Assembly (NCBI RefSeq): GCF_030815405.1
Contig: NZ_JAUSWX010000001.1
Span: 2,170,001 to 2,234,000, forward strand
Direction: 5' to 3'
Length of the DNA: 64,000 nt
Source of the DNA: Agromyces albus
Lineage (GTDB): Bacteria > Actinomycetota > Actinomycetes > Actinomycetales > Microbacteriaceae
The position numbers and the translations under genes are program-made. This document shows positions 5,253 to 24,600 of this stretch, one piece after another. The notes under the pieces are model-generated. The model saw only the letters and a list, made by a program, of their open reading frames with translations. It did no database searches and was not told the DNA's origin. Position 1 is the stretch's first letter, and each line of letters opens with the position of its first letter.

Positions 5253-5825
5253 ATGAGCCGACCCCCTGCCGCCCGTGACGCCGTGCTCGATGCGTTCGAG
5301 CGCATCCTGATCGATGGCGGCGAGCGAGCCGCGACCCTCGACGCCACGGCCCGCGCAGCCGGCGTGTCGAAGGGCGGGCTGCTCTACCACTTCTCGTCGC
5401 GCGAAGCGCTTGTCGACGCGGTGCTCGCGCGCTTCCGCGAGCTCGTCGATACCGACATCGAGCAGCTCGAGCGCGCCCCTGAGGGCGCCGTCGCCCATTA
5501 CGTGCGCAGTGCCGTCGCCGTCGGCCATCCGCTCGACCGCGCCGGCGTCGCGGCGGCGCGACTCGCCCAAGCGGGCAGCGCACCCGCCGTCCGCGTGATC
5601 AGGGCGGTGCGCCAGCGCTGGCTCGGCGCCGTGCGCCGCCACGTCTCCGACCCCACGGTCGCCCTCGCGATCACCCTCATCGGCGACGGGCTCTACTACG
5701 ACTCCGCGTTGCACGGCGACGACGCCGAGACCGGCGTCGACGCGCCCCGCGCGGCGGAGATGGACTCGCTCATCGCGCTGCTCGAGCGGCTCGCCGCCGA
5801 GCCGCCCCGGGCGCCTACTCCGTGA
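5253..5825 (+). CDS. TetR-family transcriptional regulator of the adjacent exporter
   Basis: This 190-residue protein has a typical TetR helix-turn-helix at about 8-55 (ILIDGGERAATLDATARAAG then VSKGGLLYHFSSREAL) and an all-helical ligand domain after it. It is divergent from the DHA2 exporter with the palindromic operator between them, the standard layout for a self-regulated drug-efflux pair. A TACGAT box ends seven bases before the ATG, so the transcript is probably leaderless or nearly so. The 3' end overlaps that of convergent serA by 11 bp. Confidence 0.88.
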   Translation: MSRPPAARDAVLDAFERILIDGGERAATLDATARAAGVSKGGLLYHFSSREALVDAVLARFRELVDTDIEQLERAPEGAVAHYVRSAVAVGHPLDRAGVAAARLAQAGSAPAVRVIRAVRQRWLGAVRRHVSDPTVALAITLIGDGLYYDSALHGDDAETGVDAPRAAEMDSLIALLERLAAEPPRAPTP

Positions 5826-7404
5826 TGTCGATCTCGACGAGCACGTCGGCCTCGATGGCCTCGCGCACTCGCTCGAGCACCTCGGTGGGCACCGGCGAGT
5901 CGACGGTGAGCACGCTGAGCGCCTCGCCGCCCGCCTCACGCCGCGCGATCTGCATGCCGGCGATGTTGATGCCGGCGTCGCCGAACTCGCGGCCGTAGAT
6001 CGCCACGATGCCGGGACGATCGGTGTACTCCATGATGATGTGCGTCGACGCGATCGGCACCTCGATCTCGTACCCGTTCACGCCCACGAGCTTCTCGATC
6101 TGCTTCGTGCCGGTGAGGGTGCCCGACACCGAGAGCTGACGGCCGTCGGCGAGCGCGCCCGCGATCGTGATGACGTTGCGGTACTCGGGCGACTCCGCCT
6201 CGGTGATCAGGCGAACCGAGACGCCGCGTTGCTCAGCGAGCAACGGTGCATTCACATACGAAACCGTCTCACTCACGATCTTCGTGAAAATGCCCTTGAG
6301 GGCCGCGAGCTTGAAGACGCTGACGTCGTAGTCGACGAGCTCACCGCGCACCTCGACGTCGACGCTCGTGAGCGCGGCATCCGCAAGTCCGGCGAAGAGC
6401 TGGCCGAGCTTCTCGACGAGCGGGATGCCGGGACGCACGTAGGGATCGATGACGCCGCCGGCGACGTTCACCGCATCGGGCACCAGCTCGCCGGCGAGCG
6501 CCAGGCGCACCGACTTCGCGACCGACACGCCCGCCTTCTCCTGCGCCTCGTCGGTCGAGGCGCCGAGGTGCGGCGTGACGATGACGTTCGGCAGCGACAG
6601 CAGCGGCGACTCGCGCGGCGGCTCCGAGACGAAGACGTCGAGGCCGGCGCCGGCGATGCGGCGAGCGACGAGCGCCTCGTAGAGCGCGTCTTCATCGATG
6701 AGCCCGCCACGGGCGACGTTCACGAGGAACGCCGTGGGCTTCATCCGCTCGAACTGCTCAGTGCTGATCATGCCCGTGGTCTCGGGCGTCTTCGGCATGT
6801 GGATCGTGATGAAGTCGCTGCGCTCGAGGAGCTCGTCGAGGCTCACGGTCTGCACCCCGAGCTGCTGGGCTCGCGCGGCCGTGATGTAGGGGTCGTAGGC
6901 GATGACCTCTGTGCCGAACGCCTGGAGGCGGGCGGCGATGAGGGCGCCGATGCGACCGAGGCCGATGATGCCGATGGTCTTCTCGTAGAGCTCGACGCCC
7001 GTGTAGTGCGAGCGCTTCCACTCGCCCTGGGCGAGCGCCGCGTGCGCCGCCGGAATGTGGCGGGCGAGGCTCAGGATGTGTCCGACAGTGAGCTCGGCGG
7101 CGGAGATGATGTTCGACGTCGGCGCGTTCACGACCATGACGCCGGCCGTCGTGGCCGCCTTGATGTCGACGTTGTCGAGCCCGACGCCCGCACGCGCGAT
7201 GACCTTGAGCCTCGGTGCGGCGGCGATCGCCTCGGCGTCGACCTTCGTCGCGGAACGCACGAGGATCGCATTCGCGTCGGAGAGCGCCGCGAGCAGCGCT
7301 GGACGATCGGTGCCGTCGACGTTGCGAACGTCGAAGTCGGGCCCGAGCGCATCGACGGTGGCGGGTGAGAGTTCTTCTGCGATCAGCACGACCGGCTTTG
7401 ACAC
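5815..7404 (-). CDS. serA: D-3-phosphoglycerate dehydrogenase, long form with ACT domain
   Basis: This NAD-dependent enzyme performs the first committed step of serine synthesis. The 529 residues fit the long actinobacterial type: split substrate domain, Rossmann fold with GIIGLGRIG at about 145-153, catalytic arginine in VNVARGGLIDEDAL, HLGASTDEAQ with the catalytic His, an intervening ASB domain from about 320, and a C-terminal ACT domain (GINIAGMQIARREAGG) for serine feedback. The GTG at 7404 gives VSKPVVLIAEELS and is preceded by AAAGGA; the 19 extra codons upstream have no family support. Confidence 0.96.
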   Translation of the reverse strand: MSKPVVLIAEELSPATVDALGPDFDVRNVDGTDRPALLAALSDANAILVRSATKVDAEAIAAAPRLKVIARAGVGLDNVDIKAATTAGVMVVNAPTSNIISAAELTVGHILSLARHIPAAHAALAQGEWKRSHYTGVELYEKTIGIIGLGRIGALIAARLQAFGTEVIAYDPYITAARAQQLGVQTVSLDELLERSDFITIHMPKTPETTGMISTEQFERMKPTAFLVNVARGGLIDEDALYEALVARRIAGAGLDVFVSEPPRESPLLSLPNVIVTPHLGASTDEAQEKAGVSVAKSVRLALAGELVPDAVNVAGGVIDPYVRPGIPLVEKLGQLFAGLADAALTSVDVEVRGELVDYDVSVFKLAALKGIFTKIVSETVSYVNAPLLAEQRGVSVRLITEAESPEYRNVITIAGALADGRQLSVSGTLTGTKQIEKLVGVNGYEIEVPIASTHIIMEYTDRPGIVAIYGREFGDAGINIAGMQIARREAGGEALSVLTVDSPVPTEVLERVREAIEADVLVEIDITE

Positions 7405-7479
7405 GACGAATCGATTCCTTTGGCCAGAGGGGGATGACGAGCGTCGCAATCGCTGACGCAATCACGTGAAACTCTAGCC

Positions 7480-8497: not shown

Positions 8498-8878
8498 TCA
8501 ATGGCCAGTCATCTGGAGTCGTCGCTCGCTCAGGTCGCGGTAGGCGTCCCCGACGACCGGGCCGCCGATGCCGGCGCGACGCTCAGCCAGGTCGCGATAG
8601 GTGTCGCCGGCCATCGGTCCGCCGACGCCGGCGCGGCGCTCCGCCTGATCGAGGTAGAGCCCGGTTCGTGCTTGCGCGCCGTCACGGGACATAGCCGCCC
8701 GGCGCTCTGCGAGGTCGAGGTATGCAGCTCGCTGCTCCACGATCTGGGCGTCGGACAGCCGATCGGAATCGGGCTCGGTGATCTGCCGTTGCCCTGCACA
8801 GGAGGAGAGGGCAAGGCCGGCAGAAGCCGCAAGAAGCGCGGCGGCGATGATGCGTTGGATCTTCTGTGACGTGTTCAT
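8498..8878 (-). CDS. Small lipoprotein with four tandem Y-x-D-x-A-E-R-R repeats (lipoprotein A)
   Basis: This 126-residue protein has a lipoprotein signal peptide ending in the lipobox LSSC, so it should be anchored to the outer face of the membrane. The mature part consists mostly of four repeats of about 20 residues, each built on YLDLAERRA, with the last three linked by G-(V/I)-GGP-x-x-GD. No known family is recognised. It diverges from the STAND regulator A gene; a weak GAACCT box lies six bases before the ATG and four 11-bp-spaced heptads lie directly upstream, so it is probably leaderless and a target of that regulator. A GTG two codons upstream is the alternative start. Confidence 0.78.
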   Translation of the reverse strand: MNTSQKIQRIIAAALLAASAGLALSSCAGQRQITEPDSDRLSDAQIVEQRAAYLDLAERRAAMSRDGAQARTGLYLDQAERRAGVGGPMAGDTYRDLAERRAGIGGPVVGDAYRDLSERRLQMTGH

Positions 8879-8884
8879 GACCAC

Positions 8885-8991
8885 AGGTTCGCGGCCGTCG
8901 GTATGCCCCCGGGTTTGGTTCGGTATGGAACGGGTATGGCCGCCTCCCGCCTGTCGTTGACAACCGCCATGGCCGCGCCCACACTGCAGGT
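8885..8991. promoter_or_regulatory. Divergent promoter and four-heptad operator A
   Basis: Read on the plus strand, heptads CGGTATG (8899-8905), a degenerate CGGGTTT (8910-8916), CGGTATG (8921-8927) and GGGTATG (8932-8938) repeat every 11 bp. The heptad nearest the lipoprotein ends exactly 8 bp from that gene's GAACCT -10 box (8885-8890), the spacing known for SARP-activated promoters. Rightwards, TTGACA (8957-8962), a 17-bp spacer and CACACT (8980-8985) end six bases before the GTG start at 8992, so the regulator mRNA should be leaderless. The same layout recurs at 15683-15789. Confidence 0.8.
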
Positions 8992-11900
8992 GTGGAGATC
9001 CGAGTGCTCGGTGACCTCACGATCGACGGCGGGCGACTCAGTCCGAAAGAGCGTTCCCTGCTCGCCGCCCTCGTCCTCCGGGCTGGCAACGTCGTCACAC
9101 CGCCTGAGTTGGCCGATGCGGTGTGGGGCGACGAGCTCCCGAGCACTTGGCCGAAACAGGTGCAGGCCTTTGTCGTCCAGATCCGCCGAGCACTGGGCTC
9201 GACGTCCATCGCCACGACACGTGGCGGCTACCGACTCCGGATCGATCCCGACTCGATCGATGCCGTCCGCTATGAGCGGCTCATCGAGATCGCCGGCGTC
9301 CACCGTGCAAACGGGGACCCAGTGCGTGCCATCGATGTGCTTGAGCGAGCAGCCTCACTCTGGAGCGGAGCGCCGTACTCGGACCTCGGCGAGTGGCCGG
9401 CCGCGATCGCAGAGGCGGAACGCCTCGAGGAGATCAGGAAGTCCGCAGAGGAGGACCTGCAGGCGGCAAGGCTCGAGGGTGGCGAGCACCGGGCCGTCGT
9501 CCCCGACGCGGAGCGCCTGGTCAAGGCCGATCCTCTTCGCGAACGGCGGTGGGCGATCCTCGTGACGGCGCTCTATCGGAGCGGCCGTCAGGCCGACGCC
9601 CTTGCCACACTGCGGAGCGCGCGGGAGCGGCTGGCTGACGAGCTTGGCATAGAACCCGGAGCAGAACTCGTTGCGCTCGAATCGGCGATCCTGCATCAGG
9701 ATGCCTCGCTCGACGCGCCATTGAGACCCGAGCTCACGAGTGCTGACTGCCCCTACCGCGGCCTGCAGCCGTTCGGCACTGACGATGCCGAAGAGTTCTT
9801 CGGGCGGGATGCCGACGTCCAAGCTGCGCTGGCCCGGCTCTCGGGTTTGCCCTTCCTCGCCATCTCCGGGGCATCCGGGGCCGGGAAATCCTCGCTGGTG
9901 CTGGCCGGTATCGTCCCCGCACTCCGGGCTCGCGGTGATCTCGTGGTCGTCCTCGGCTCGGGGGCGACGCCGATCGCTCGACTCCGAGACGCATTGTCTG
10001 GTCGAGGCAACGCCGACGTCGTCGTCATCGACCAGTTCGAAGAGCTGTTCCACTCCGGCCTCCCTGACGCGCACGTGGCCGAGTTCTCTGCTCTGATCGC
10101 GGATGCCGTCGCAGTGGGACAGCGAGTGATCGTCGCCGTACGCGCTGACTTCCTCAGCTCATGCGCAGCGGAGCCGAGCATCGGGCCGCTGTTCGCGGCG
10201 GGTGTCCACCTCGTCGGTCCGCTCGGTCCCGACGGGCTTCGCAGTGCCATCGAGGAGCCGGCCCGCCTCGCCGGGCTCCGTCTTGAGCCGGGGCTCGTCG
10301 AGCTGATCCTGCGAGATGCCGCCGGCGCGCCGGGCGTGCTCCCCCACGTCTCGCACGCCCTCGTGGAGACCTGGCTGCGCCGTGAGGGTGCCACGCTCAC
10401 GGTCGCCGGGTACGAGGATTCCGGCGGCATCTCGGGCGCGATCGCCAAATCGGCCGACCAGCTCTACTTGTCGCTCGATCCCGACGCACGAGCGACCTGC
10501 CGAGCCACGTTCCTGCGACTCGTCGAGATCAGCGCTGACGGGGCGCCGATGCGCCGGCGTATCCCGATCACCCCGATGCGGCAGGATGCAGCGCACGACC
10601 GAGTGCTCACGAGTCTGGCACGGGCCCGCTTGGTGAGCGCCGATGAGGACTCGCTCATCGTCGCGCACGAGTCGCTCGCGACGGCGTGGCCACGCCTTCG
10701 CGGATGGCTCGAGGACGACACCGAGGGTGTTCGCGCGATGAGCGCGCTCGCGAGCGCAGTGAGCACCTGGGAGGCGGATGGTCGACCCGACGAGGACTTG
10801 TACCGTGGAGCCCGCCTCAACGCCGTCCTCGCATGGCGCGATGCCGCAGACCCCGAACTCACCGAATCGGAAGTCGACTTCCTCGAGGCATCCGCGGAGC
10901 AGGAGCGTGCCGCCATCGACGAGATCGAGCACCGTGCCAAGCACGACCGGAGGCAGAACCGACGACTGCGCGTGCTGCTGGCCGCGGCCGTGACGCTGTT
11001 CGCCGTCGCCGTCACCGCAGGTGGGTTCGTCGCGGCCGGCTCGACCGAGACCGCTCACCAGCGGGAGACGGCCCAGATCGAGGCCCTCACGAGCACGGCA
11101 CTGTCGCTTCGCGGAACGGACCGGGACGTCGCGGCCCTGCTCGCGGCGGAAGCCCACCGACGGTGGCCAGACGACCCTCGCACGCGCTCTGCGCTCATGG
11201 GCGCCATGACGAGTTCCCACGGCCTTCTCGCGACGACGCATCTCGAGGGCGTTGACGGCATGTCGGGCACCCTCATCCCGGGAACTCGGCGCGCGGTCGC
11301 CGTGACCGCGGACGGGTCCGCGGTGTACGACATCGATTCCGGTGCGCTCGTGCACCCCGTCGACCTGCCGAAGGAGAGTCCCGACACCGACAGCCGGTAC
11401 GGTCCAGCGGTCAGTGGAAATGGAGCGCGGGTCGCGAATGCGGATCGGATCCTCGACGACACCGATACGCAGGTGGGGATTCGGCTCTCCGTTGCCGACC
11501 TCGCGACCGGGGCCCTGATCCGCCCAACGATTGAGCTCGACTTCCCGCTCAGTTCCATCACGATGAACCACGGAGGCGACCTGATCGCCGCGATCGACCA
11601 GATCGGCACGCTGCGGCTCATCGATGCGGACACCGGGCTAATCCGGCAGGTCACCGGCACCTCCGTCCACGATGCGCAAGACGCCACGGACCGCGCCGGT
11701 GCTGTGCGCTTCATCCCCAACGGACGACTCGTCTACGGCACCGTCGAGGGGCCGCTGCAGGTGGTGGACCCGGACGCGGCTGCCGTGGTCGCCACGGTGC
11801 CCATGCCCGCGGAGTCGACGAACGTCTCCATGACGGTCGTCTCGGACACGCGCGTCATCACGGCGGGCGACCAATGGATCTCGTCCATCGACATCGCCGC

Positions 11901-13206
11901 GGGCCGGGTCGACTGGTCGCAGCAGTTGCTGACCACGACCGACGATCCGTGCCCCTGGGTGACGGCATCCGTCGAACTCCGGACCGTGTACTGCGGCGAC
12001 CTGTTCGGTCACATCGACGAGCGGAGCCTCGACACCGGCGCGCCGACCGAGCGCTCATTCGACCCGCAACTCGGGTTCGTCGGCACCATGTCCGTCGTGG
12101 AAGACCGGCAGGAGCTCGTGGTCGTCGGCCGTGGCACGGCGATCACGCGCTGGAAGCTCGACGGGTCCGGTGCCGTCACACGGGTCCTCGCGCCCGGTTG
12201 GGTGATCCGAGATAGGTACTCGCCGGCCGGTTCGAGCCTTGTCGTCGCCCGCCGAGCGGATGGCGTGGAGTGGTGGGGGGACTACCGCGAGTTCGCGGTG
12301 CTCGACACACGCACGGAGGAGCTGCTTCTGCGCGTTCCCACCCCCTCATTCGGGGTCATGTGGGCGGGCGAGTCAACCCTGGTCGGCGACTTCGGCGGCG
12401 TCGGACCGCGCCGAACCGGCTACCTCGACATCCGCACCGGAGAGAGCTATTCGGGTGATCCACTCCCCGAGCACGTGGAGAGCGTCTGGATGAATGCCCG
12501 AGGGGACCGGATGCACGTCGGCCGGCCCGGCGGCGAGATCTGGACGATCGACCCGACGACCGGGCGCCGCACCGAACCCACCATGCAGACCGACGGCGGC
12601 TATCCGGTCCTCATCTCGACGAGTCCCGATGGCAGCCGCGTGCTCGTGACAAGCTGGAACAAGGAGTACACGCCCGATTCGATCCTCTTCGACGGGGCGA
12701 CCGGCGAACGGATCCGCAAAGGGCTCGTAGGCATCGGCAGGACGGCTCTGACGGCGCGGGACGAGATCGCCACCATCTTTCGGCTCCAATCCGTCGTCCG
12801 CTACGACGCCGACACGTTCGAGCAGATCGGGGCCCTTCCAGGCGCCTCCGGGGGCCTCGACACCCTGAACGTCAGCGCCGACGGCCGCATCCTGAGCACG
12901 TATTCCCTGGACAACACGGTGACCCTCTACGACCTCGTGGGCGGCGTGCAGCTCGGCGACCCCATCCCTGTATTTGGCGAGTGGAACTACGAGATGGGGG
13001 GCGTGTACTCAGGAGTGCTTCGCGCCGATGGAACAGAACTCGCCGTCAACGTGCCGGCGGGCATCGCGGTGTGGGATCTCCGGCCGTCATCGCAGGCGGA
13101 TGCCGCCTGCAGGATGGCCGGTCGCGATCTCACGCGCGACGAGTGGATCGCCTATCTCTCCGACCTCGGTCCCTACCGATCGACGTGTGGCTTCGGCGGC
13201 GAGTGA
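8992..13206 (+). CDS. SARP-like regulator fused to nSTAND1 ATPase, membrane segment and WD40-like propeller (regulator A)
   Basis: The 1404-residue protein has, in order: an OmpR-type winged helix (about 1-90), a BTAD helical repeat domain (about 95-240), an nSTAND1 NTPase opening with CPYRGLQPFGTDDAEEFFGRD near 252, Walker A GASGAGKSS at about 295-303, Walker B VVVIDQFEELF at about 342, a helical region, one membrane helix at about 661-684, and a beta-propeller of WD40-like blades to the end. The terminal ACRMAGRDLTRDEW...YRSTC is a known feature of nSTAND1-WD40 proteins. With the DNA-binding part inside, the propeller would be outside the cell. It probably senses an external signal and controls the divergent lipoprotein gene. 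Confidence 0.88.
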   Translation: MEIRVLGDLTIDGGRLSPKERSLLAALVLRAGNVVTPPELADAVWGDELPSTWPKQVQAFVVQIRRALGSTSIATTRGGYRLRIDPDSIDAVRYERLIEIAGVHRANGDPVRAIDVLERAASLWSGAPYSDLGEWPAAIAEAERLEEIRKSAEEDLQAARLEGGEHRAVVPDAERLVKADPLRERRWAILVTALYRSGRQADALATLRSARERLADELGIEPGAELVALESAILHQDASLDAPLRPELTSADCPYRGLQPFGTDDAEEFFGRDADVQAALARLSGLPFLAISGASGAGKSSLVLAGIVPALRARGDLVVVLGSGATPIARLRDALSGRGNADVVVIDQFEELFHSGLPDAHVAEFSALIADAVAVGQRVIVAVRADFLSSCAAEPSIGPLFAAGVHLVGPLGPDGLRSAIEEPARLAGLRLEPGLVELILRDAAGAPGVLPHVSHALVETWLRREGATLTVAGYEDSGGISGAIAKSADQLYLSLDPDARATCRATFLRLVEISADGAPMRRRIPITPMRQDAAHDRVLTSLARARLVSADEDSLIVAHESLATAWPRLRGWLEDDTEGVRAMSALASAVSTWEADGRPDEDLYRGARLNAVLAWRDAADPELTESEVDFLEASAEQERAAIDEIEHRAKHDRRQNRRLRVLLAAAVTLFAVAVTAGGFVAAGSTETAHQRETAQIEALTSTALSLRGTDRDVAALLAAEAHRRWPDDPRTRSALMGAMTSSHGLLATTHLEGVDGMSGTLIPGTRRAVAVTADGSAVYDIDSGALVHPVDLPKESPDTDSRYGPAVSGNGARVANADRILDDTDTQVGIRLSVADLATGALIRPTIELDFPLSSITMNHGGDLIAAIDQIGTLRLIDADTGLIRQVTGTSVHDAQDATDRAGAVRFIPNGRLVYGTVEGPLQVVDPDAAAVVATVPMPAESTNVSMTVVSDTRVITAGDQWISSIDIAAGRVDWSQQLLTTTDDPCPWVTASVELRTVYCGDLFGHIDERSLDTGAPTERSFDPQLGFVGTMSVVEDRQELVVVGRGTAITRWKLDGSGAVTRVLAPGWVIRDRYSPAGSSLVVARRADGVEWWGDYREFAVLDTRTEELLLRVPTPSFGVMWAGESTLVGDFGGVGPRRTGYLDIRTGESYSGDPLPEHVESVWMNARGDRMHVGRPGGEIWTIDPTTGRRTEPTMQTDGGYPVLISTSPDGSRVLVTSWNKEYTPDSILFDGATGERIRKGLVGIGRTALTARDEIATIFRLQSVVRYDADTFEQIGALPGASGGLDTLNVSADGRILSTYSLDNTVTLYDLVGGVQLGDPIPVFGEWNYEMGGVYSGVLRADGTELAVNVPAGIAVWDLRPSSQADAACRMAGRDLTRDEWIAYLSDLGPYRSTCGFGGE

Positions 13207-13217
13207 GCCGACGACCC

Positions 13218-14636
13218 CTAGCCCTCGGCGAGACACCGGCCATCGACCCGCGGCCGCGCGACGCCGAACTCGAAGTCCACCTTCGCGCCCTCGACGGCCC
13301 CCAGCTCACCACTGCTGAAGTTCGGCTCCCCGTGCATCGTCTCAGGACCGCCCAGACCGAGTTCCGCCCACGCCAGCGCGATGCGGTCGACGGCGGCGAT
13401 GTTGAGTTCCGTGACCTCGCGGTCGTGTTCGTCACTCGTCGTGTCGGTGATGACCCCCATCGCGAGCTCGGCGTCGATGCGAAGACGGATGCCGCCATCG
13501 CAGGCTTCCTCGATCACCGGCACGGCCGGCGAGTCGCGCCAGAATGCCTCGGGCCCCGCGGCCTCAACGGCTGCGGCCGCGAGTGCGGCGAACTGCCGGC
13601 GGCTCTCCGCGACGCCCGGCACCCGTTCGTCGGCGCGGGGTTCCTGACCGGGGAATCCGGTGCCGGGGTCAGCGGGCGCGTCGTCTTCGTCGGGCAAGTC
13701 GGCGTCGCCGCGAGACTCCGCCGCCGGGGCGACGGGCTCGTGGAGTGCCGCGCTGACGACGAACGCGAGTCCGCAGAGCGCGACGAGAACGACGCCCGCG
13801 CACGCCGCGATGACCAGTGCTCGCGACCGAAACGGGCCCAGCGCCGCGAGGAGCGCCGCGAAGAGCAGCACACCGGTTGCGACGAGTCCGAGGAGCTGCA
13901 GCGATTCGAGCCACTGCGGCGCGAGCCGCAGCGCGGTGTCGCCCTGCCAGCAGAACCCCTGCACCGGGAACGATTGGGACCGGAACGCACCTCCACCGAG
14001 CGGCGCACACGCGTCATCGGGGTCGTACCACCCCCAAGCCCGAGCGGCCGAGGTGGCGGCGTGCAGTGTTGTGGCGGCGAACCCGCCGGCGACGGCGGCG
14101 AGCATGGCGGCGACCCAGGCATTCGGCTCCGGCAGCGGCCGGCGGGCGCGGCGCCGTGCCCACGCGTGGGCGGCGATGCCGATCGCGACCGAGACCCCGA
14201 GCCACGCGAAGAACGCCGGCGCCGTGACGAACGCCGCGTCACGACCCTCAGGTCGCCAGGATTGGGCGATCACCCAGACCCACCCAGCTCCGGGGACGGC
14301 GGCGAGGGCGGCGCCGACGCCCACGGCAGTCTCTCGGGCCGCTCGGCTCCAATCGAGGGCGCGGGCCACGAGGAGACCGAACGCGCCGCCCGCTCCACCG
14401 AACACGGCGGCGAGGACGAACGCGGCCATGAACGGCGGCGTCAGGAAGAGTAGCGGTGGGAACACGGCGCTGCCGGCGAGCAGCAGCCCGGCGACGATCG
14501 AGCCCACCGCCACGGCGCACGAGAACAGTCGCGCGGCTTCGACGAGTGCGCCGCCGGGCTCACCGTCGGGCTGAGCCTTCACCAGCTTCCCGCGGTCGTC
14601 TTCCTCCACGTCGGTTCCTGCGGCAGCGTCACTCAC
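13218..14636 (-). CDS. Multi-pass membrane protein with extracellular C-terminal domain, unknown function
   Basis: The 472-residue protein has an acidic cytoplasmic start, about eight hydrophobic segments between residues 35 and 310, and then a soluble region of about 150 residues beginning with a D/E/P-rich linker (DADLPDEDDAPADPG). That tail has the look of a secreted alpha/beta domain, but I recognise no family. The GTG start overlaps the TGA of cutC by 4 bp (GTGA), so it is translationally coupled downstream of cutC. It ends 12 bp from the end of the convergent regulator A gene. Confidence 0.75.
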   Translation of the reverse strand: MSDAAAGTDVEEDDRGKLVKAQPDGEPGGALVEAARLFSCAVAVGSIVAGLLLAGSAVFPPLLFLTPPFMAAFVLAAVFGGAGGAFGLLVARALDWSRAARETAVGVGAALAAVPGAGWVWVIAQSWRPEGRDAAFVTAPAFFAWLGVSVAIGIAAHAWARRRARRPLPEPNAWVAAMLAAVAGGFAATTLHAATSAARAWGWYDPDDACAPLGGGAFRSQSFPVQGFCWQGDTALRLAPQWLESLQLLGLVATGVLLFAALLAALGPFRSRALVIAACAGVVLVALCGLAFVVSAALHEPVAPAAESRGDADLPDEDDAPADPGTGFPGQEPRADERVPGVAESRRQFAALAAAAVEAAGPEAFWRDSPAVPVIEEACDGGIRLRIDAELAMGVITDTTSDEHDREVTELNIAAVDRIALAWAELGLGGPETMHGEPNFSSGELGAVEGAKVDFEFGVARPRVDGRCLAEG

Positions 14637-15388
14637 GCGCGCACCGAGGCCTGCGCCGCAGCGACGGCAGCGCGCACGAGCTCCGCGTCGGTGGCGTCGA
14701 AGCCGATCTCGCCGCCGCCCGGCCCGCTCGGTCCGCCTCGTTCGTCGTGGCGACGAGCTGACAGGTGCACCGCGTCGACGCCGATTGCCGCAAGCGCCCC
14801 GATGTCGTCGACGCCGACGCCCCCGCCGGCCATCACCTCGACGCTGCCGCGAACCTCCGACGCCATTCGCGCGAGCGTCGGCAGGCCGGCACGGCAGTCC
14901 GCTGCACCCCCGGAGGTGAGCACGCGACGCACGCCCGTGCCCGCGAGCGCGGCGACGGCGGCGAGCGGGTCCGTGGCGGCGTCGACCGCCCGGTGCACCG
15001 TGACGTCGAGCCCGGCTGCGGCATCGAGGAACGCGACGATCGTGGCGAGGTCGAGCGCACCGGCATCCGTCAGCGCGCCGACGACCACGCCGTCGGCACC
15101 GAGCGACCGGGCTGAGCGGATGTCGCGCACGATCGCCTCGACCTCATCGCGGTCGTACACGAATCCCCCACCACGCGGGCGCACGAGCACGTGAACGAAC
15201 GACGCTGCGGATGCCGCGCGCGCAAGCTCCACGGCGGCCTCGACGAGCCCCGCCGACGGCGTCAGCCCACCGAGCCCGAGCGCCTGGCAGAGCTCGACGC
15301 GAGCGGCGCCGCCGCCGAGCGCGATGCGGACGCCCGCGGCATCCTGGACGGCGATCTCGACGGGAAGGAATCCTGGCACCCTTGCCAC
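14633..15388 (-). CDS. cutC: CutC-family TIM-barrel protein
   Basis: The 251 residues match CutC along their length: PVEIAVQDAAG, RVELCQALGLGGLTPS at about 31-46, VHVLVRPRGGGFVYD, VVGALTDAG, VTVHRAVDAA, RRVLTSGG and the glycine-rich VEVMAGGGVGVDDI. CutC was named for copper homeostasis in E. coli, but its biochemical role remains uncertain. A truncated second copy lies at 20690-20866 in the same orientation, marking a likely segmental duplication. The next gene in the same direction overlaps its stop codon. Confidence 0.9.
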   Translation of the reverse strand: MARVPGFLPVEIAVQDAAGVRIALGGGAARVELCQALGLGGLTPSAGLVEAAVELARAASAASFVHVLVRPRGGGFVYDRDEVEAIVRDIRSARSLGADGVVVGALTDAGALDLATIVAFLDAAAGLDVTVHRAVDAATDPLAAVAALAGTGVRRVLTSGGAADCRAGLPTLARMASEVRGSVEVMAGGGVGVDDIGALAAIGVDAVHLSARRHDERGGPSGPGGGEIGFDATDAELVRAAVAAAQASVRA

Positions 15389-15433
15389 GCTACCGGCTCG
15401 AGTGCGAGTGGCCCGTTCCCGGAGGAAACGCCC

Positions 15434-15463
15434 CAGCGGGGCCGGCCTGAGCCGACCCCGCTG
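15434..15463. terminator. Hairpin downstream of lipoprotein B
   Basis: CAGCGGGG (15434-15441) pairs with CCCCGCTG (15456-15463), with a nested CGGC/GCCG stem in the loop. It lies just after the stop of the leftward lipoprotein B gene and before cutC, so it probably ends the lipoprotein transcript. Its core is nearly repeated at 20646-20673. Confidence 0.55.
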
Positions 15464-15487
15464 TGGGGAGTGACGTGTGGGGAGTGC

Positions 15488-15676
15488 TCAGCGAGCGGCG
15501 TCGGCGCGTTCGATGAGCTCGTCGACATACCGGTCGGCGCTCTCCCGCAGGAGGGTGCGATTGAGGCCGGGGTCGGCAGCGGGCGATGCGGTTGCGCAGC
15601 CTGCGAGTCCGACCATGGCCGCGACGAGTACGAGACCGGCCGCGAGGACCTTGCGGGTGTTCTGTGTGTGTTCCAT
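15488..15676 (-). CDS. Small lipoprotein paired with regulator B (lipoprotein B)
   Basis: The 62-residue precursor has a lipoprotein signal MEHTQNTRKVLAAGLV with lipobox LAGC, leaving a mature peptide of about 37 residues that ends DRYVDELIERADAAR. That end resembles one copy of the repeat in lipoprotein A (YLDLAERRA), which suggests common ancestry. The ATG lies six bases after a CAGCGT box and 21 bp from the first operator heptad, exactly as in lipoprotein A. A longer reading upstream crosses the operator and is not supported. Function unknown. Confidence 0.75.
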   Translation of the reverse strand: MEHTQNTRKVLAAGLVLVAAMVGLAGCATASPAADPGLNRTLLRESADRYVDELIERADAAR

Positions 15677-15682
15677 GTCTCC

Positions 15683-15789
15683 ACGCTGACGAGGACCGGT
15701 ATGAATGCGGGTGGCCGCCGGTATGAGCGCGGTATGAACGCCGGCGCTCCGCCATTGACACCGCCCCACGCGACTCCCACACTGCAGGT
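15683..15789. promoter_or_regulatory. Divergent promoter and four-heptad operator B
   Basis: Heptads CGGTATG (15697-15703), degenerate CGGGTGG (15708-15714), CGGTATG (15719-15725) and CGGTATG (15730-15736) repeat every 11 bp. The first ends 8 bp from the CAGCGT -10 box (15683-15688) of lipoprotein B. Rightwards, TTGACA (15755-15760), 17 bp, and CACACT (15778-15783) end six bases before the GTG at 15790. Every spacing equals that in operator A, while much of the sequence between the elements differs. Confidence 0.8.
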
Positions 15790-18700
15790 GTGAGCATCAA
15801 TGTGCTCGGGGCGCTGTCGACGGATGCCGGGGCGCTCAGCCCGCAGGAACGGGCGGTGGTCGCCGCACTCGCGGTGAATCCCGGACATGAGATGAGCCCC
15901 GGGAACCTCGCGGAGGCCTGCTGGGGCGAGTCGGTTCCCCGCACGTGGCCGAAGCAGGTGCAAGCACTCGTGTCCCGCGTCCGCCGCCGGCTCGGACCGC
16001 AGAGCATCATGACGACCACGCAGGGCTACGCACTCAGCGTCGCGCCCGAGACGATCGACTCCGTGCGCTTCGAGCGACTCGTCGATCGAGCCCGCGAACA
16101 GCAGGGTCAGGGTGACCCGGAACGAGCGATCACGAGATACGAGCAGGCGCTTGCACTCTGGCGTGGTCCTCCCTTCTCCGACGTCGCCGCGTGGCCGCCC
16201 GCGTCCATCGGGGCCGCACGTCTTGACGAGATCCGGCGGGCGGCGGAAGAGGACCTGCTCGAGGCGCACCTCGCCTGCGGCGAGCACCACAGCGTGATCG
16301 CGGAGGCCGAGAGGCTCGTGCGTGCCGAGCCCCTCTCGGAGCGACGCTGGGCGATCCTCGCACTCGCGCTCTACCGCAGCGGTCGCCAGGCGGATGCGCT
16401 CGCGGCCCTCCGGCGCATGCGGGACGAACTCGACTCGCGACTCGGAGTCGACCCTGGCCCTGAGAGCACGTCGCTCGAGACCCAGATCCTGCGCCAGGAC
16501 CCGCGGCTCGATGCACCGCCGCCCCTGCGAGAGGCGCGGGCTGCAAACCCGTACAAGGGGCTGCGTCCCTTCACGCCCGATGACGCAGCCGACTACTTCG
16601 GCCGCGAACCCGAGATCGCGATCGTGCTCGACCGCCTCGACGAGGCGCACCTCGTCGCCGTCGTCGGCCCGTCGGGGAGCGGCAAGTCCTCGCTCGTCCT
16701 CGCGGGGGTCGTTCCCCGGCTCAGGGACCGCGGCCGCTCCCCCGTGCTCATCACGCCGGGCACCGGCCGGCGTACGGGCGACATCGTCATCATCGACCAG
16801 TTCGAGGAGCTCTTCCAGCTCGGATGGCCGCCCGGCGACATCGCCGCCTACTGCGAGTCCGTCGCAGATGTCGTCGCCGCCGGTCACGATGTCATCCTCA
16901 CGTTGCGCTCAGACGCCCTCGATCGCTGCGTTGCCGATCCCCGGCTCGGTCCGCTCATCCGCGAAGGACTCGTCGTCCTCGGCCCGCCGAGTGCGGAAGC
17001 CCTGCGTTCGGCAATCGTCGAGCCGGCGCGGTTCTCCGGTCTGCGGGTGGAGCACGGGCTGACCGAGCTCATCCTCCGCGACGCCGTCAACGAACCCGGA
17101 GTGCTGCCCCTCCTCTCCCACGCCCTCGCTGAGACCTGGCAACGACGTGAGGGGGCGGTACTCACGGTGGAGGCGTACGAGTCGGTCGGGGGCATCCGCG
17201 GGGCGATCGCACGGTCGGCCGAAGAGCTGTACGCCGCGCTCGCTCCTGCCGAGCGGACCCAGTGCCAGGCCCTCCTGCGGCGACTCGTGTCGCTCACGCC
17301 GGATGGACGCGCCGTGCCGCGCCGGGTGGCCGTCGGCCCGCTTCGATCGGAGCCGCACCGGTCGGCGATCATCGCACGACTCGCGAGCGCGCGGCTGGTG
17401 AGCGTGACCGACGAGACGATCACCGTCGCCCATGAATCCCTCGCGACGGCCTGGCCACGCCTGCACTCCTGGCTCGAAGAGGATGCAGAGGGCGCACGCA
17501 CCCTCGCGCACCTGACCGCCGCTGCCGAATCGTGGGAAGAGGCCGGCCGACCGGCCGACGAGCTCTACCGCGGCGCTCGCCTCCGCACCGCCCTCGAGTG
17601 GCGCGACTCGTCGTCGCCCGACCTCACGGCGACCGAATCCGCCTTCCTCGACACGTCTGCGGAGCGCGAGTCCGCAGACGAGCACCGCACCGCCGAACGC
17701 GCCCGGCGCGAACGGCGCCAGCGCCGGCTCCGGCGCATCCTGCTCCACGGTCGTGCTCGTCGTTGCGTCGGTCGCCGCGACCGTCCTCGCCGTGCGCGGC
17801 GCCGACGACGCGGCACGGCAACGCGAGTCAGCGGACATCGAGAGGTTGGTCGGGACCTCGCTGTCGCTGCGGTCATCGCAGCGCACGGTCGCAGCGCTCC
17901 TCGCCGTCGAGGCGCACACCCGCTGGCCCGAGGACCCGCGGACTCGCACCGCCCTCATGGGCACGTTCACGGCGTCCCCCGGGTTGCTCGGGACAGCCAC
18001 CATCGCCGACACAGGGCGGATCGCCGCCCACACGGTCCCAGGAACGGGCGAAGCCGTCGTCATGCGCGACGACGGAACTGCGGGGATCTACGAGATCGCG
18101 ACGGCGCGACCGCTCCATGAACTCGAGATCGCACCGAGTCTGTCCAAGCTCCCATGGCGGCCGCTCGTCGCGGTCAGCGCGGATGGGGGTACTGCAGTAT
18201 TCGTGCGAGCATCGTACGTCTCGGAACTCATCGCCGTGGATCTCGCATCAGGGGATGCGATCGGTCCGACCTTGACGCTGAGCGTTGACGCTGCTGACGT
18301 GGCTGTTGATTCCGCGGGATCATTCGCCGTCGTCGCCGGCATCGACGGTCGCATTCGCGCCGTCGACCTGAGCTCGATGCGCGCCTCCGTGGTCGAGTAT
18401 CCTGTGGCGACCCGTGTGGCTGGCGCGGAGACCAGCGCGGCTTCTGTCGCGTTCCTCGACGACGACCGACTCGTCATCGGATCCATCGATGCCGTTGGCA
18501 TCGTGGACGTTGCGGCGAGAGATCGCGGCCCTCGGTTCGCGCTTCCGCCCGGGTTCGCGAACCGTGCGATCGCCCCGGTCGGCTCTGTGGTCGTCACGGC
18601 CGGCGACAGGGGCATCCTCGCCATGGACGGAGCGTCAGGAGCGGTGCTGTGGAGGCAGGAGATCGACCAGTGGTCATCGGCATGCACGTCGCTGTCGGTC

Positions 18701-19876
18701 TCCATGACACGTGGCGCCGCATGGTGCGGCAGCCAAGCGGGTGAGGTCGTCCAATACGATCTCGCGACCGGATCGACGACCGCACGGTTCCCGCAACGTG
18801 CGAGCGGCGTCTTCCCGAGTGCCGACGGGACCGAGGTCGTGATGACGGGGACGGAAGAACCTGTGCTCTCGCGGTGGGCCCTCGACGGCCGAGGTGCGAT
18901 CACCCGGGTGATCGCACGCGGATCAACCGGGATAGGCGGATACGACCCGGATGGTTCGGCGCTGCTTGTCGTGGATGACTCCGCCCGTGTGCATGTCTGG
19001 GACCCGCGCACCGACGCCAGCCGTGTCGTGCTTCCAGGCGACACCTTCGGCCACGTCTGGGCAGGCATCGATGCGCTGCTCGTGAACGTGGATGGTCGCG
19101 CCAAGCCGACATTGCTTGACGCGACGACGGGCGAGCTCCTTCCGAGCGACGGAGTCCCCGAGTTCTCATTCACCGAGTTGACGTGGACCTCCGGCCGTCG
19201 AGTCCAAGTCGTCGAGCAAGGGGCTGGTCTTGTGGTCGTCGAACCAACCACCGGCGAGCGCGTGTCCGGGCCGTTCAATCTCGACTCGATGCCGAACTCG
19301 GTCAGTTCGCTTCCAGATGACTCCGGCCTGCTCGTCACGACGGCGCACGACGGCGTCTTCACCACCCGGATGTTGGACGCGGAGAGCGGTGAACCCGTCT
19401 CGCCTGACCTGGTCGGTCCCGAGATCACCACGCTCGTGGGGGATGCCGTCGTCGTGGGAGCCGAGGGGAGTCGCCTGCTGACCTACGCGATCGACGACTT
19501 CGCCGTGATGGGCTCGCTGCCCAGCACCTCCGCCGGCACGAGAACGCTGCAGGCGAGCGCGGATGGCCGTACGCTGCTGGCGACCGGGATCGACGGTTCG
19601 GCCTCGTTGTTCGATCTCGAGAGCGGACTCCGTCTCGGTGACGCGATCCCGTCGGCCGGCGAGGTCGGGTTCGCGGCGTCGCTGCGACCCGACGGCCGTG
19701 AGCTCGCCGTCGTCCTCGCCGACGGCATGCAACTCTGGGATCTCGATTCCGGGGCCCAGGCCGAAGCGGCGTGCCGGGTCGCAGGACGCGATCTCACGCG
19801 CGAGGAGTGGGACGAGCACCTCGGCGCGATCGCACCCTATCGCTCGACGTGCGGGTTCGGGCTGGCCGGCGACTGA
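15790..19876 (+). pseudogene. SARP-nSTAND1-propeller regulator B, interrupted by a frameshift
   Basis: This is a paralogue of regulator A. The first reading frame gives winged helix, BTAD and nSTAND1 (NPYKGLRPFTPDDAADYFGRE; Walker A GPSGSGKSS near 292; Walker B IVIIDQFEELF near 331) up to RRLRRILLH at residue 653. Homology then moves to the next frame: from the GTG at 17753 the propeller frame MLVVASVAATVLAVRG runs to 19876 and ends ACRVAGRDLTREEW. One extra G near 17749-17750 explains the shift; without it the protein would be about 1361 residues. The break falls at the start of the membrane helix. It could be a true lesion, a sequencing error, or two separate proteins (15790-18120, with about 120 meaningless terminal residues, and 17753-19876). 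Confidence 0.8.
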
Positions 19877-20645: not shown

Positions 20646-20673
20646 GGCGGGGCCGGCCGAAGCCGACCCCGCC
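20646..20673. terminator. Hairpin after the MerB-like gene
   Basis: GGCGGGG (20646-20652) pairs with CCCCGCC (20667-20673) 10 bp after the stop codon. The loop nearly repeats that of the hairpin at 15434-15463, so the two may be copies. No T-run is present. Confidence 0.5.
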
Positions 20674-20689
20674 GCGCGGAGTCAAGCGG

Positions 20690-20866
20690 GTAGCGGATGC
20701 CGCGGCCGCCGCCTTGACGGCCGCCTCGACGAGCCCGGCCGACGGGGTGAGCCCGCCGAGCCCGAGCGCCTGGCAGAGCTCGACGCGGCCAGCTCCGGCT
20801 TCGAGGGCGATGCGCACTCCCGCGGTGTTACACGGCGATCTCGACGGGAAGAGGCGGAGCGACCAT
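20690..20866 (-). pseudogene. Truncated cutC relic
   Basis: Only about 55 N-terminal codons of a cutC gene remain. The piece reads MVAPPLPVEIAV, then a stop caused by a net 2-bp loss, then in the next frame TAGVRIALEAGAGRVELCQ and LGLGGLTPSAGLVEAAV, nearly identical to the intact CutC encoded at 14633-15388; homology stops near 20690. Orientation relative to regulator B is the same as that of intact cutC relative to regulator A. The 306-bp stretch between the MerB-like gene and the next lipoprotein holds only the hairpin, this relic and a promoter. Confidence 0.82.
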
Positions 20867-21548: not shown

Positions 21549-21681
21549 CCTCCGAATTGGGGGGTAGCCCATCGTCCATTCGGGTCTGGACACATGCGGG
21601 ACACGGGGCCAATATCTGCGGTGTCGAGCGCGTTCGAAGTGGGATGGGGGAACGTCCCCGAGCGCGCCGAGGGGGTTGGTC

Positions 21682-24600
21682 ATGACCGAACGATTTGTCG
21701 CGCGCGCGGCACGGGGATCGCACTCGCGGAAGGCGGCCGCGGTCATCGCGGCATTCGCGTTCGTCGGGGTGACGTTGTTCGCCTTTCCGGTTGAAGCAGC
21801 GACGATCGACGCCGATTACGTGGCACAGGGACCGTCGCCGATCACGGGCGGCCAGGTCGAGTCGGTCACTCCGAACAATGAAGTGGCCGGCGCGGTGCAG
21901 ACCGTCGTCGCCCACCCGAGCGATCCGAACATCGCGTGGGTCGGCACGGTCAACGGCGGCGTCTGGCGCACCTTCAACGCCACCGCAGCCTCACCCACCT
22001 GGACACCGCTCACGGATCAGCAGGCGAGCCTGTCGATCGGTGCGCTCGAACTCGACCCGACGGTCGCGACCAACACCGTCCTCCTCGCGGGCATCGGCCG
22101 GGTGAGCTCGTTCGGCCGCATCTCCGGACCGCTCAACGGCCTGCTGCGCACAGCCGATGCCGGAACGACCTGGACCCCGCTCGGCGCGGCCCAGCTCGCG
22201 GGCGAGAGCATCTCCGGGGTCGCACCCCGTGGCGCGACGATCGTCGTCGCCTCGAACGGCAACACCAACGCCAACGGCGCGGGGCAGGGCGGCATCTACC
22301 GGAGCACCGACGGCGGCGCGAACTTCACGCGTCTTTCGGGCAACGGCACGAGCGGACTCCCCAACGTCGGCGTCTTCGACCTCGTCGGCGACCGCTCGAA
22401 CAACGCTGTGCTCTACGCAGGCACCCAGCAGGGCATCTTCCGCAGTACCGACACCGGACTCAACTGGCAGAACGTCACGAATCAGGTCACCGGCATCGGC
22501 AACGCGACCACGAACAACCTCGAGTTCGCGGTCCACAACAGCGCCGGCAACAATGTCGTCTACGCCGGCGTCATCAACAACGGCCAGCTGAACGGCCTCT
22601 GGCGGTCGGTCGACCAGGGTGCCAACTGGGTGCAACTCGACACGCCGGTCACGAACGAGGGCGGCACGATCGTCGGCCTCCAGCCGCGTGAGAAGCCGGG
22701 GAGCCAAGGTGCCGTGCACTTCTCAATGCTCGCCGATCCCACCGACCCGACCCTCGTGTACGTCGGCGGCGACCGCCAGCCGAACAACAACGGCTTCCCG
22801 AACTCCGTCGGGGCGAACACGTTCAGCGGGCGATTGTTCCGGTGCGACTCGGCCCTCGCCGCGAACACGCAGTGCACGTCCCTGACCCACAACGGCACGG
22901 CGAACAACAGCTCACCGCACGCCGACTCTCGGGAGATGGTCTTCGACGCCAACGGCGACATCCTCGAGGGCGACGACGGCGGTGTCTACCGCCAGACCGA
23001 TCCCTCGACGACGAACGGCGCCTGGCAGTCGATCAACGGCAACCTCCAGATCGGCGAACACCATTCCTGCGGCTACGACAGCGTCGGCGAGATCATCCTC
23101 TGCGGTGACCAGGACACCGGCGCTCCCGAGCAGTCTGCATCCGGCAGCGCGAGCTGGACAACATTGAGTGCCGGCGACGGCGGCTTCGTCGCCGTCAACG
23201 ACGCGGGCGCCTCCTCGATCCGCTTCAGCAGCTCGAACAGCTTCGGCGCCGGTTCCTTCCTCCGGCGCACCTGCACGGCCGCGAACGTCTGCGTGAACTC
23301 CGCGCCGGGCTTCAACGTCGTCGGTCAGGGCCAGACGATCCAGAACTTCGAGGTCGACGGCGCCGGCAATTCGACGCTGCCCCTGTACACGCCGCTCGCC
23401 ATCAACACGATCGACCCGACGCGCTTCATCGTCACGTCGAACCGTGTCTACGAGTCGACCGATTCGCTCGACAACCTCAACATCATCGTCAACACCCTCG
23501 GCGCGAACACGGGGACCACGAGGGCGATCGCGTACGGCGGTCGTGCCGGCGGTGCCAACAACCCGGGCGTGCTGTGGTTCGGCGACTCTGGCGGCCGGCT
23601 GTTCCTGCGCAGCGGCGGCGCCGGCGCGCCGGCCCAGCTGCCCGGCTGGACGAACGGTGCGGCGAGCGACATCATCCTGAACCCCGAGAACTGGGCCGAC
23701 GCGTTCGTCTCGTCGGGCACGCAGGTGTTCCACACCGTCGACGCCGGCGGGACCTTCACGAACGTGACCGGCAACCTCGGCGCACTGGCTCCGGCCGCGA
23801 ACGTGCGCTCGCTCGAGATTGTGCCGGTGCCCGGAACGGATGTCCTGGCGCTCCTGGCCGGCACCGACTCCGGCGTCTTCGTGAGCCAGACGCAGAACCT
23901 CGGCGTCTGGGCCGAACTCGGCTCCTCGCTCCCCAACACGATCGCGTTCGACCTCCACGTCGACGCGGCCGACGATGTGCTGCTCGTCGGCACCATGGGT
24001 CGCGGGACCTGGCTCGTGGAGGACATCGAGGATGTCATCCCGATCGCGGACGTGCGCGTCGCGAAGACCGACTCCCCCGACCCGGTCATCGCCGGCGAGG
24101 AACTGTTCTACACGGTGACCGTGACGAATGACGGTCCGGATGCCTCGGCAGGGGTGGTCGTCGTCGACGACCTGCCCGACGAGGTGACGTACCTGTCCGA
24201 CGACGGCGGCTGCACCTACGACGCGCTCGACCATCAGCTCACCTGTGCGGTCGGCGACATCCCTGCGGGCGAGAGCCGCTCCTTCGTCATCAAGACGCGG
24301 GTCCTCGCCGACACGGTCGTCGATGAGGACGACGGGACGCTCCTCATCGAGAACCGCGTGTCGGTCTCGGGAGCGAGCGTCGACGGCAACCTCGCGAACA
24401 ACACGTTCGTGCAGCGCACGTTCGTGCAGGAGCGCAGCGACCTGAAGGTGACGAAGGTGTGCACGCCCGACGACGAGCTGCCGGCAGGCGAAACCGGCAC
24501 CTGCACGATCTTCGTGGACAACCTCGGCCCGTCGTCGGCTCGCGACATCGTCGTGACGGACGCCAACCTCAGCGACGGAGCGTTCACGTTCGGTGCCATC

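Follow-up and report, generated by a model that had tools for sequence, protein, structure and literature searches.

Introduction

Most of what is known of SARPs concerns the control of antibiotic genes. AfsR and AfsS of Streptomyces coelicolor are the closest described counterparts of the system reported here, which consists of two divergent gene pairs of Agromyces albus in a 64,000-nucleotide stretch of contig NZ_JAUSWX010000001.1 (positions 2,170,001 to 2,234,000; referred to as the window), each coupling the gene of a SARP-headed regulator (A or B) to that of a small lipoprotein. Both systems combine a winged helix-turn-helix (wHTH)-BTAD head and a STAND-type NTPase with direct repeats phased at 11 bp and an adjacent target gene for a small protein. 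However, AfsR ends in tetratricopeptide repeats, with no membrane helix mentioned in the available text of PMC10936776, and AfsS is described as sigma-factor-like (available text of PMC10972967) and not as a lipoprotein. The NCBIfam profile for AfsR equivalogs (NF053617, cut-off 1430 bits) was missed by far, with 160.8 bits for regulator A and 143.7 for the first frame of regulator B.

Transmembrane regulators of the ToxR-CadC type share the cytoplasmic wHTH, a single membrane helix and an external sensor domain, but in the Agromyces proteins the head is separated from the membrane by BTAD and an NTPase, and a tandem propeller makes up the external part. A survey of transmembrane regulators (PMC10269533) mentions none of BTAD, SARP, propeller or WD40 in its main text. 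Co-component systems such as ToxR/ToxS and VtrA/VtrC likewise join a transmembrane regulator to a fast-evolving partner encoded alongside. VtrA and VtrC are described as the products of partly overlapping genes that form an obligate heterodimeric sensor (available text of PMC9214523), whereas the partner here is divergent, often very small, repeat-bearing and probably a regulated output. The nSTAND1 domain, finally, is common to conflict NTPases and to these regulators, but here it follows a SARP head, and profile searches of the regulators found no effector, nuclease or toxin domain.

We consider that the system is a membrane-tethered, AfsR-like SARP activator with a dedicated exported lipoprotein as output, and give this reading a probability of roughly 0.7. 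The external tandem propeller would sense a signal, which would pass through the single membrane helix and switch the cytoplasmic nSTAND1 ATPase; in the switched form, the wHTH-BTAD head would be able to bind the intergenic region next to its gene, at three repeats phased by 11 bp, and would then start the divergent, leaderless promoter of the lipoprotein gene. The regulator gene would run from a separate promoter with its own consensus -35. Domain architecture, topology signals, conserved pairing and an operator that covaries with the DNA-binding helix are the parts supported by sequence. We infer the roles of propeller as sensor and nSTAND1 as switch, and that binding would activate the lipoprotein gene and not repress it.

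None of the domains is new, and large SARPs, nSTAND1 proteins and one-component regulators that span the membrane are all known; what appears to be new is their combination. In the open-access literature we found no description of a SARP/nSTAND1 protein that has an external tandem propeller, an operator code of its own and a dedicated partner that is usually exported, in keeping with the first-pass annotation, which knew of none for the pairing. With this system the SARPs would gain a transmembrane branch. Its many natural pairs of operator and DNA-binding domain may turn out to form a specificity code that can be read, and a likely target gene for each regulator makes it possible to test directly whether an outside signal activates transcription across a single membrane helix and via a STAND ATPase.

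Results and discussion

Two loci of common layout

At both loci the lipoprotein and regulator genes diverge across a gap of 113 bp, and the regulators have the same domain order (Table 1). The twin loci of one plan that had been described from the first reading are thus borne out in layout, but regulator B is frameshifted and is not one open gene. Regulator A matches PF00486 (wHTH, E 1e-9), PF03704 (BTAD, E 2e-35) and PF20703 (nSTAND1, E 5e-98), and the first two profiles likewise score above cut-off in regulator B, giving both proteins the succession of OmpR-type wHTH and BTAD that marks a SARP. The nSTAND1 Walker A and B consensus sequences are GASGSGKSS and IDQFEE, with key residues invariant in 19 aligned proteins, and ATP binding is predicted for regulator A, whose domain carries both motifs. 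When regulator A was compared with its own genome (4.27 Mb, one contig; E <= 0.001), the only matches were itself and two pieces of regulator B.

The frame change in regulator B falls in the membrane-helix region and leaves head and propeller in separate frames. Regulator B is therefore probably inactive or altered in this genome, although the frameshift may be an assembly error. Programmed frameshifting was considered and not adopted, as the closest fetched relative (L050) has an uninterrupted frame of 1373 aa and the breaks in other copies lie elsewhere. Three features went beyond the first-pass annotation: a shared triple direct repeat, a twin promoter layout and internal peptide repeats in lipoprotein A.

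Table 1 Positions of predicted genes, domains and regulatory elements of loci A and B in the window
Feature	Position	Strand	Details
Lipoprotein A gene	8498-8878	minus	126 aa; ATG at 8878, start picked by conservation
-10-like element, lipoprotein A	8885-8890	minus	GAACCT; 6 nt before ATG, 9 nt from nearest repeat
Operator A (predicted)	8900-8943	plus	three GGTATG direct repeats at 8900, 8922, 8933; spacing 22 + 11
Regulator A promoter	8957-8985	plus	TTGACA 8957-8962, 17 nt, CACACT 8980-8985
Regulator A gene	8992-13206	plus	one intact open frame, 1404 aa
Regulator A domains			residues: wHTH 15-82, BTAD 89-234, nSTAND1 254-600, membrane helix ~661-679, helical neck + tandem propellers 684-1404
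Membrane helix of regulator A	10972-11040	plus	RRQNRRLR before it
Predicted external neck + tandem beta-propellers, regulator A	11041-13203	plus	fold model + conserved Cys
Lipoprotein B gene	15488-15676	minus	62 aa; lipobox ..VGLAGC; one SADRYVDELIERA copy
-10-like element, lipoprotein B	15683-15688	minus	CAGCGT; 6 nt before ATG
Operator B (predicted)	15698-15741	plus	GGTATGA-type direct repeats at 15698, 15720, 15731; spacing 22 + 11
Regulator B promoter	15755-15783	plus	TTGACA 15755-15760, 17 nt, CACACT 15778-15783
Regulator B, first frame	15790-18120	plus	wHTH-BTAD-nSTAND1; out of frame from membrane-helix region onward
Regulator B, second frame	17753-19876	plus	rest of membrane-helix region + propellers; other frame than first part

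Pairing of regulator and exported partner

Partners were scored by an automatic rule, which asks for a divergent gene that starts 40-300 bp upstream and encodes a lipobox-bearing signal peptide. By this rule a lipoprotein partner accompanies 31/39 Agromyces regulators and 53 of all 109 regulators, compared with 5/330 control genes (other genes of the same loci). Inspection raises the Agromyces count to 35/39, including one product of 47 aa and two of 253-254 aa, and leaves L033_1949, L034_19497, L036_12051 and L052_7266 without a partner; the pairing thereby withstands the refuting condition set at first reading, that homologous regulators never adjoin a lipoprotein gene. With rule and inspection together, 91 of the 109 regulators face products that carry a signal sequence or a membrane segment, among which some of the longer ones may be unrelated neighbours, and 6 face a cytoplasmic product.

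A further set of relatives consists of the best 80 of 194 (72 loci), from which copies of genus loci were omitted (L067-L077, L084, L092, L096, L098, L100, L101 and L119). Those named are from Microbacterium, Demequina, Kribbella, Nocardioides, Knoellia, Cellulomonas, Cryobacterium, Arthrobacter and others, and also from metagenome-assembled genomes of Acidimicrobiales and Chloroflexota. A survey of the family at E 1e-100 gave 12/398, and one of the phylum 17/396; only two candidates per genome were scored, which may undercount, and several matches cover the nSTAND1 part only.

A predicted operator between the genes

The gaps of loci A and B have a common layout, GGTATG-N16-GGTATG-N5-GGTATG, in which the last repeat begins 59 bp upstream of the regulator start, the repeats end 13 bp upstream of TTGAC, and the regulator GTG lies 6 nt after CACACT. 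The 4.27-Mb genome was searched for the triple repeat, with at most 3 mismatches tolerated, which gave two matches, at loci A and B, and no third; the reversed pattern, used as a control, gave one. Across the family an 11-bp repeat pair is located 40-70 bp upstream of the start in 92/114 rows, and three identical heptamers at 0/+22/+33 are found in 30/112, for each of which none of 200 shuffles did as well. The last repeat is most often at 59-61 bp or, one helical turn shorter, at 48-50 bp, a position seen in Nocardioides among others. Repeats agree better within a locus (0.60) than between loci (0.41; 0/2000 permutations, 49 loci).

Described SARP targets have repeats spaced by 11 or 22 bp and 8 bp to the -10 (available text of PMC10936776). 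The 22 + 11 spacing and the 9 nt between repeat core and -10-like element at both window loci closely resemble this geometry and mark the repeats as a candidate operator. Alignment of 25 Agromyces-type lipoprotein promoters gave the consensus xAnnnTG-N5/6-CATG, with no clear -35 and an operator repeat in its position; the layout at lipoprotein A is that of a putative leaderless promoter. Because a -35 is missing and the SARP spacing is found on that side, binding would be expected to activate the lipoprotein promoter. The regulator A promoter has a consensus -35, and its transcript probably begins at the GTG. At the L050 locus (upstream of 7198) the operator block and the lipoprotein repeat are both tandemly amplified with respect to window locus B.

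Covariation of operator and recognition helix

Recognition helices and repeats were aligned for 74 dereplicated proteins out of 92, and mutual information was calculated over the wHTH columns. Operator base 6 is most strongly linked to residue 59 (z 17), and bases 2 (z 24) and 5 to residue 58; for base 7 the highest values are those with residues 56, 52 and 60. Helix types and repeats go together: QAF with GGTATGG (2/2), QAL with GGTATGA (4/5, including regulator B and L033_1949 of the A clade), QAS with GGTATGC (9/12), QIA or QIC with GGTATCC (5/5), KTS or KTA with GGTACTC (7/9) and RNS or RNA with GATATCC (7/7). Residues 58 and 59 align with R87 and T88 of AfsR, of which T88 touches a base and R87 the backbone (available text of PMC10936776). 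The covariation speaks for each regulator reading the repeats of its own intergenic region, and matched changes of helix and operator probably insulate each regulator-operator-lipoprotein unit from its paralogues. Taken together with the operator geometry, it makes the lipoprotein the probable product of its regulator, as had been proposed at first reading.

A number of observations weigh against this picture. Regarding the helix-operator code, AfsR binding was reported to be unimpaired by a change of the base contacted by T88 (same source, available text), the QGC group of 17 proteins is spread over five operator sequences, and the best partner of base 8 is residue 18. The covariation is also partly phylogenetic, with scores inflated by relatedness, and the 3-4 independent pairs on supported branches, in which the second trait hardly ever changed in the opposite direction, are too few for a test. 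Regarding the pairing, no partner was found for 12/109 regulators, and a product is present in 84/90 regulators with an operator and in 13/19 without one, such that partner and operator do not always co-occur. Six Microbacterium-type loci (L081, L082, L088, L144, L145 and L151) have a divergent product without a signal peptide, of 68-70 aa in L088, L144, L145 and L151; at L088_6001 the small signal-less gene is followed by a lipoprotein gene. The hydropathy scan flags additional segments in 23/48 proteins. The leaderless spacing is of Agromyces type, most other loci having the product start at least 50 nt from the nearest repeat. Lastly, when the repeats are read as in AfsR (conserved bases 5' of the variable ones), the array faces the regulator, and action on the regulator promoter is possible.

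This orientation raises the alternative that the main role of the repeats is at the promoter of the regulator itself, the lipoprotein gene being a passive neighbour. The 13-bp distance from the window repeats to TTGAC, a -35 that is located 34-37 bp upstream of the regulator start in 107/114 rows, is compatible with such autoregulation, and no product was found in 6/90 operator-bearing rows. We nevertheless think it unlikely: the regulator promoter has a -35 of its own, it is the Agromyces lipoprotein promoter that has a repeat in the -35 place at the gap described for both window loci, and pairing is far above the control rate.

Membrane topology and the propellers

The first-pass annotation had placed the DNA-binding end in the cytoplasm and the propeller outside, and two signals in the sequences uphold this. 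The hydrophobic helix of regulator A is conserved, and its N-terminal flank is the more positive one in 47/48 proteins, the one miss having its top-scoring segment elsewhere. In a second set the helix was found in 52/54 proteins and the positive-inside bias in 51/54, and the bias holds in 98/102 over both sets. The number of cysteines after the helix is even in 48/49 and 51/52 proteins (99/101 in all; the rows are related and not independent), as opposed to 23/52 and 28/52 before it, and Cys 987, 1001, 1373 and 1399 of regulator A are kept in 48/48 aligned relatives. Even numbers suggest disulphides and hence an outside location, and the propellers are very probably outside the cell. WD40-STAND proteins without a membrane helix exist, and the helix could in principle be a mere anchor or an artefact with the propeller in the cytoplasm; given the charge bias and cysteine parity this is very improbable. 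Regulator A can therefore be classed as a transmembrane one-component regulator of predicted topology, unlike the frameshifted regulator B. L065 and L066, which are without the helix, are also without an operator. L059, L060 and L061, a shorter related group (~1120 aa) that serves as a natural control, have the helix and an even cysteine number, yet neither operator nor lipoprotein partner was found for them either.

An AlphaFold2 model of the C-terminal region of regulator A (48-row alignment) has a predicted local distance difference test score (pLDDT) of 90.6 and a predicted TM-score (pTM) of 0.89. The best PDB folds found by Foldseek include tandem WD40 propellers, for example Pwp2 and Utp21; for the whole two-propeller model the 50 matches listed have strong E-values but low TM-scores (0.28-0.36 by query length), and were used for the fold only. 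The outer part is thus modelled as a helical neck followed by tandem propellers.

The lipoproteins and a possible return signal

Lipoprotein A has a signal peptide and a lipobox (..LALSSC) followed by four copies of the motif Y-x-D-x-[AS]-E-R-R, and its Cys27 is invariant in 47 aligned rows. Lipoprotein B likewise combines signal peptide and lipobox, and lipidation of both is predicted. Among 64 lipoprotein A relatives (lipoprotein A itself included) 28 have four motif copies, 20 three, 11 two, 4 one and 1 none. The AlphaFold2 model of lipoprotein A (47 rows) is of low confidence (pLDDT 64, pTM 0.27), with helices only and no globular fold predicted. No significant internal repeat was detected in lipoprotein B, whereas its L050 relative has three copies of the SADRYVDELIERA motif. 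Motifs at other loci differ (DNDPRGHH, SADRYVxELxxRA, ADRIxE and DDDLSP), also between paralogues within one genome. Internal repeats are significant (p < 0.01, shuffling) in 25/79 product rows, counting L065, which is outside the family, and L143, a copy; in Agromyces the figure is 17/33.

Partners beyond Agromyces include small lipoproteins (Nocardioides), products with a signal peptide and a C-terminal hydrophobic segment (Kribbella) and secreted proteins, and in Cryobacterium, Arthrobacter and Cellulomonas larger lipoproteins of 237-246 aa stand beside shorter regulators of ~1130 aa. In L062 and L113 the regulator diverges from a secreted 260-aa protein, PD40-like by eye, and there is no triple repeat.

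At first reading it had been suggested that the lipoprotein may signal back to its propeller. In such a closed loop the repeat motifs would be the ligand of the neighbouring propeller, providing feedback or a private channel of self-recognition. Lipoprotein and propeller are predicted on the same side of the membrane, short motifs occur in several copies (59/64 lipoprotein A relatives have 2-4, besides the significant Agromyces products), motifs are unlike between paralogues of one genome, and several genomes hold neighbouring copies. The comparisons made gave the proposal no specific support: lipoprotein similarity follows both halves of the regulator about equally, with partial correlations of lipoprotein distance of 0.28 with the propeller and 0.22 with the cytoplasmic half (partial Mantel; both 0/2000 permutations), and mapping the motif class onto the trees does not discriminate either, with 9 changes required for the cytoplasmic half and 10 for the propeller. 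In L034_10293, an apparent recombinant, the motif follows the cytoplasmic-half relatives while the propeller belongs elsewhere, and the six products lacking a signal peptide do not fit either. We regard the loop as doubtful. Its elaboration into private self-signalling, with the lipoprotein as a surface-tethered string of peptide motifs read by its own regulator's propeller, and arrays with mutually exclusive operators as several insulated channels of identity or envelope state built from one fold, is a speculative and rather unlikely idea.

Possible turnover of the copies

Full-length or broken copies are present in 24/60 Agromyces genomes (that of the window included), several as arrays of 2-4 neighbours. 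The regulator is broken in 5/38 evaluable Agromyces copies; since the breaks are at different places, copies may be gained and lost often. In-match TGA codons in L034_3989, L038_2629 and L046_7328 were rejected as breaks, being stops at the natural end. This patchiness, the arrays and the broken copies would also be expected of a conflict or surface-identity cassette, in which lipoproteins diversify under recognition by phages or rivals and the regulator is the switch. The propeller tree has longer branches than that of the cytoplasmic half, and nSTAND1 domains occur in putative conflict systems (available text of PMC8195603). The want of an effector, nuclease or toxin domain noted above, an output that resembles a transcription switch and neighbours of housekeeping appearance make this explanation distinctly improbable, and we retain the lipoprotein-activating SARP as the preferred reading.

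Neighbouring genes

The housekeeping-like neighbours, named by eye, are a serA-like gene (5815-7461) and a cutC-like gene (14633-15388). Part of the cutC-like 5' region occurs a second time downstream of regulator B, at 20647-20825, with identities of 83% over 133 nt and 86% over 36 nt; it looks as though locus B came together with a duplication around cutC. Further downstream of this locus, positions 21676-26055 encode a probably secreted protein of 1459 aa with repeated modules.

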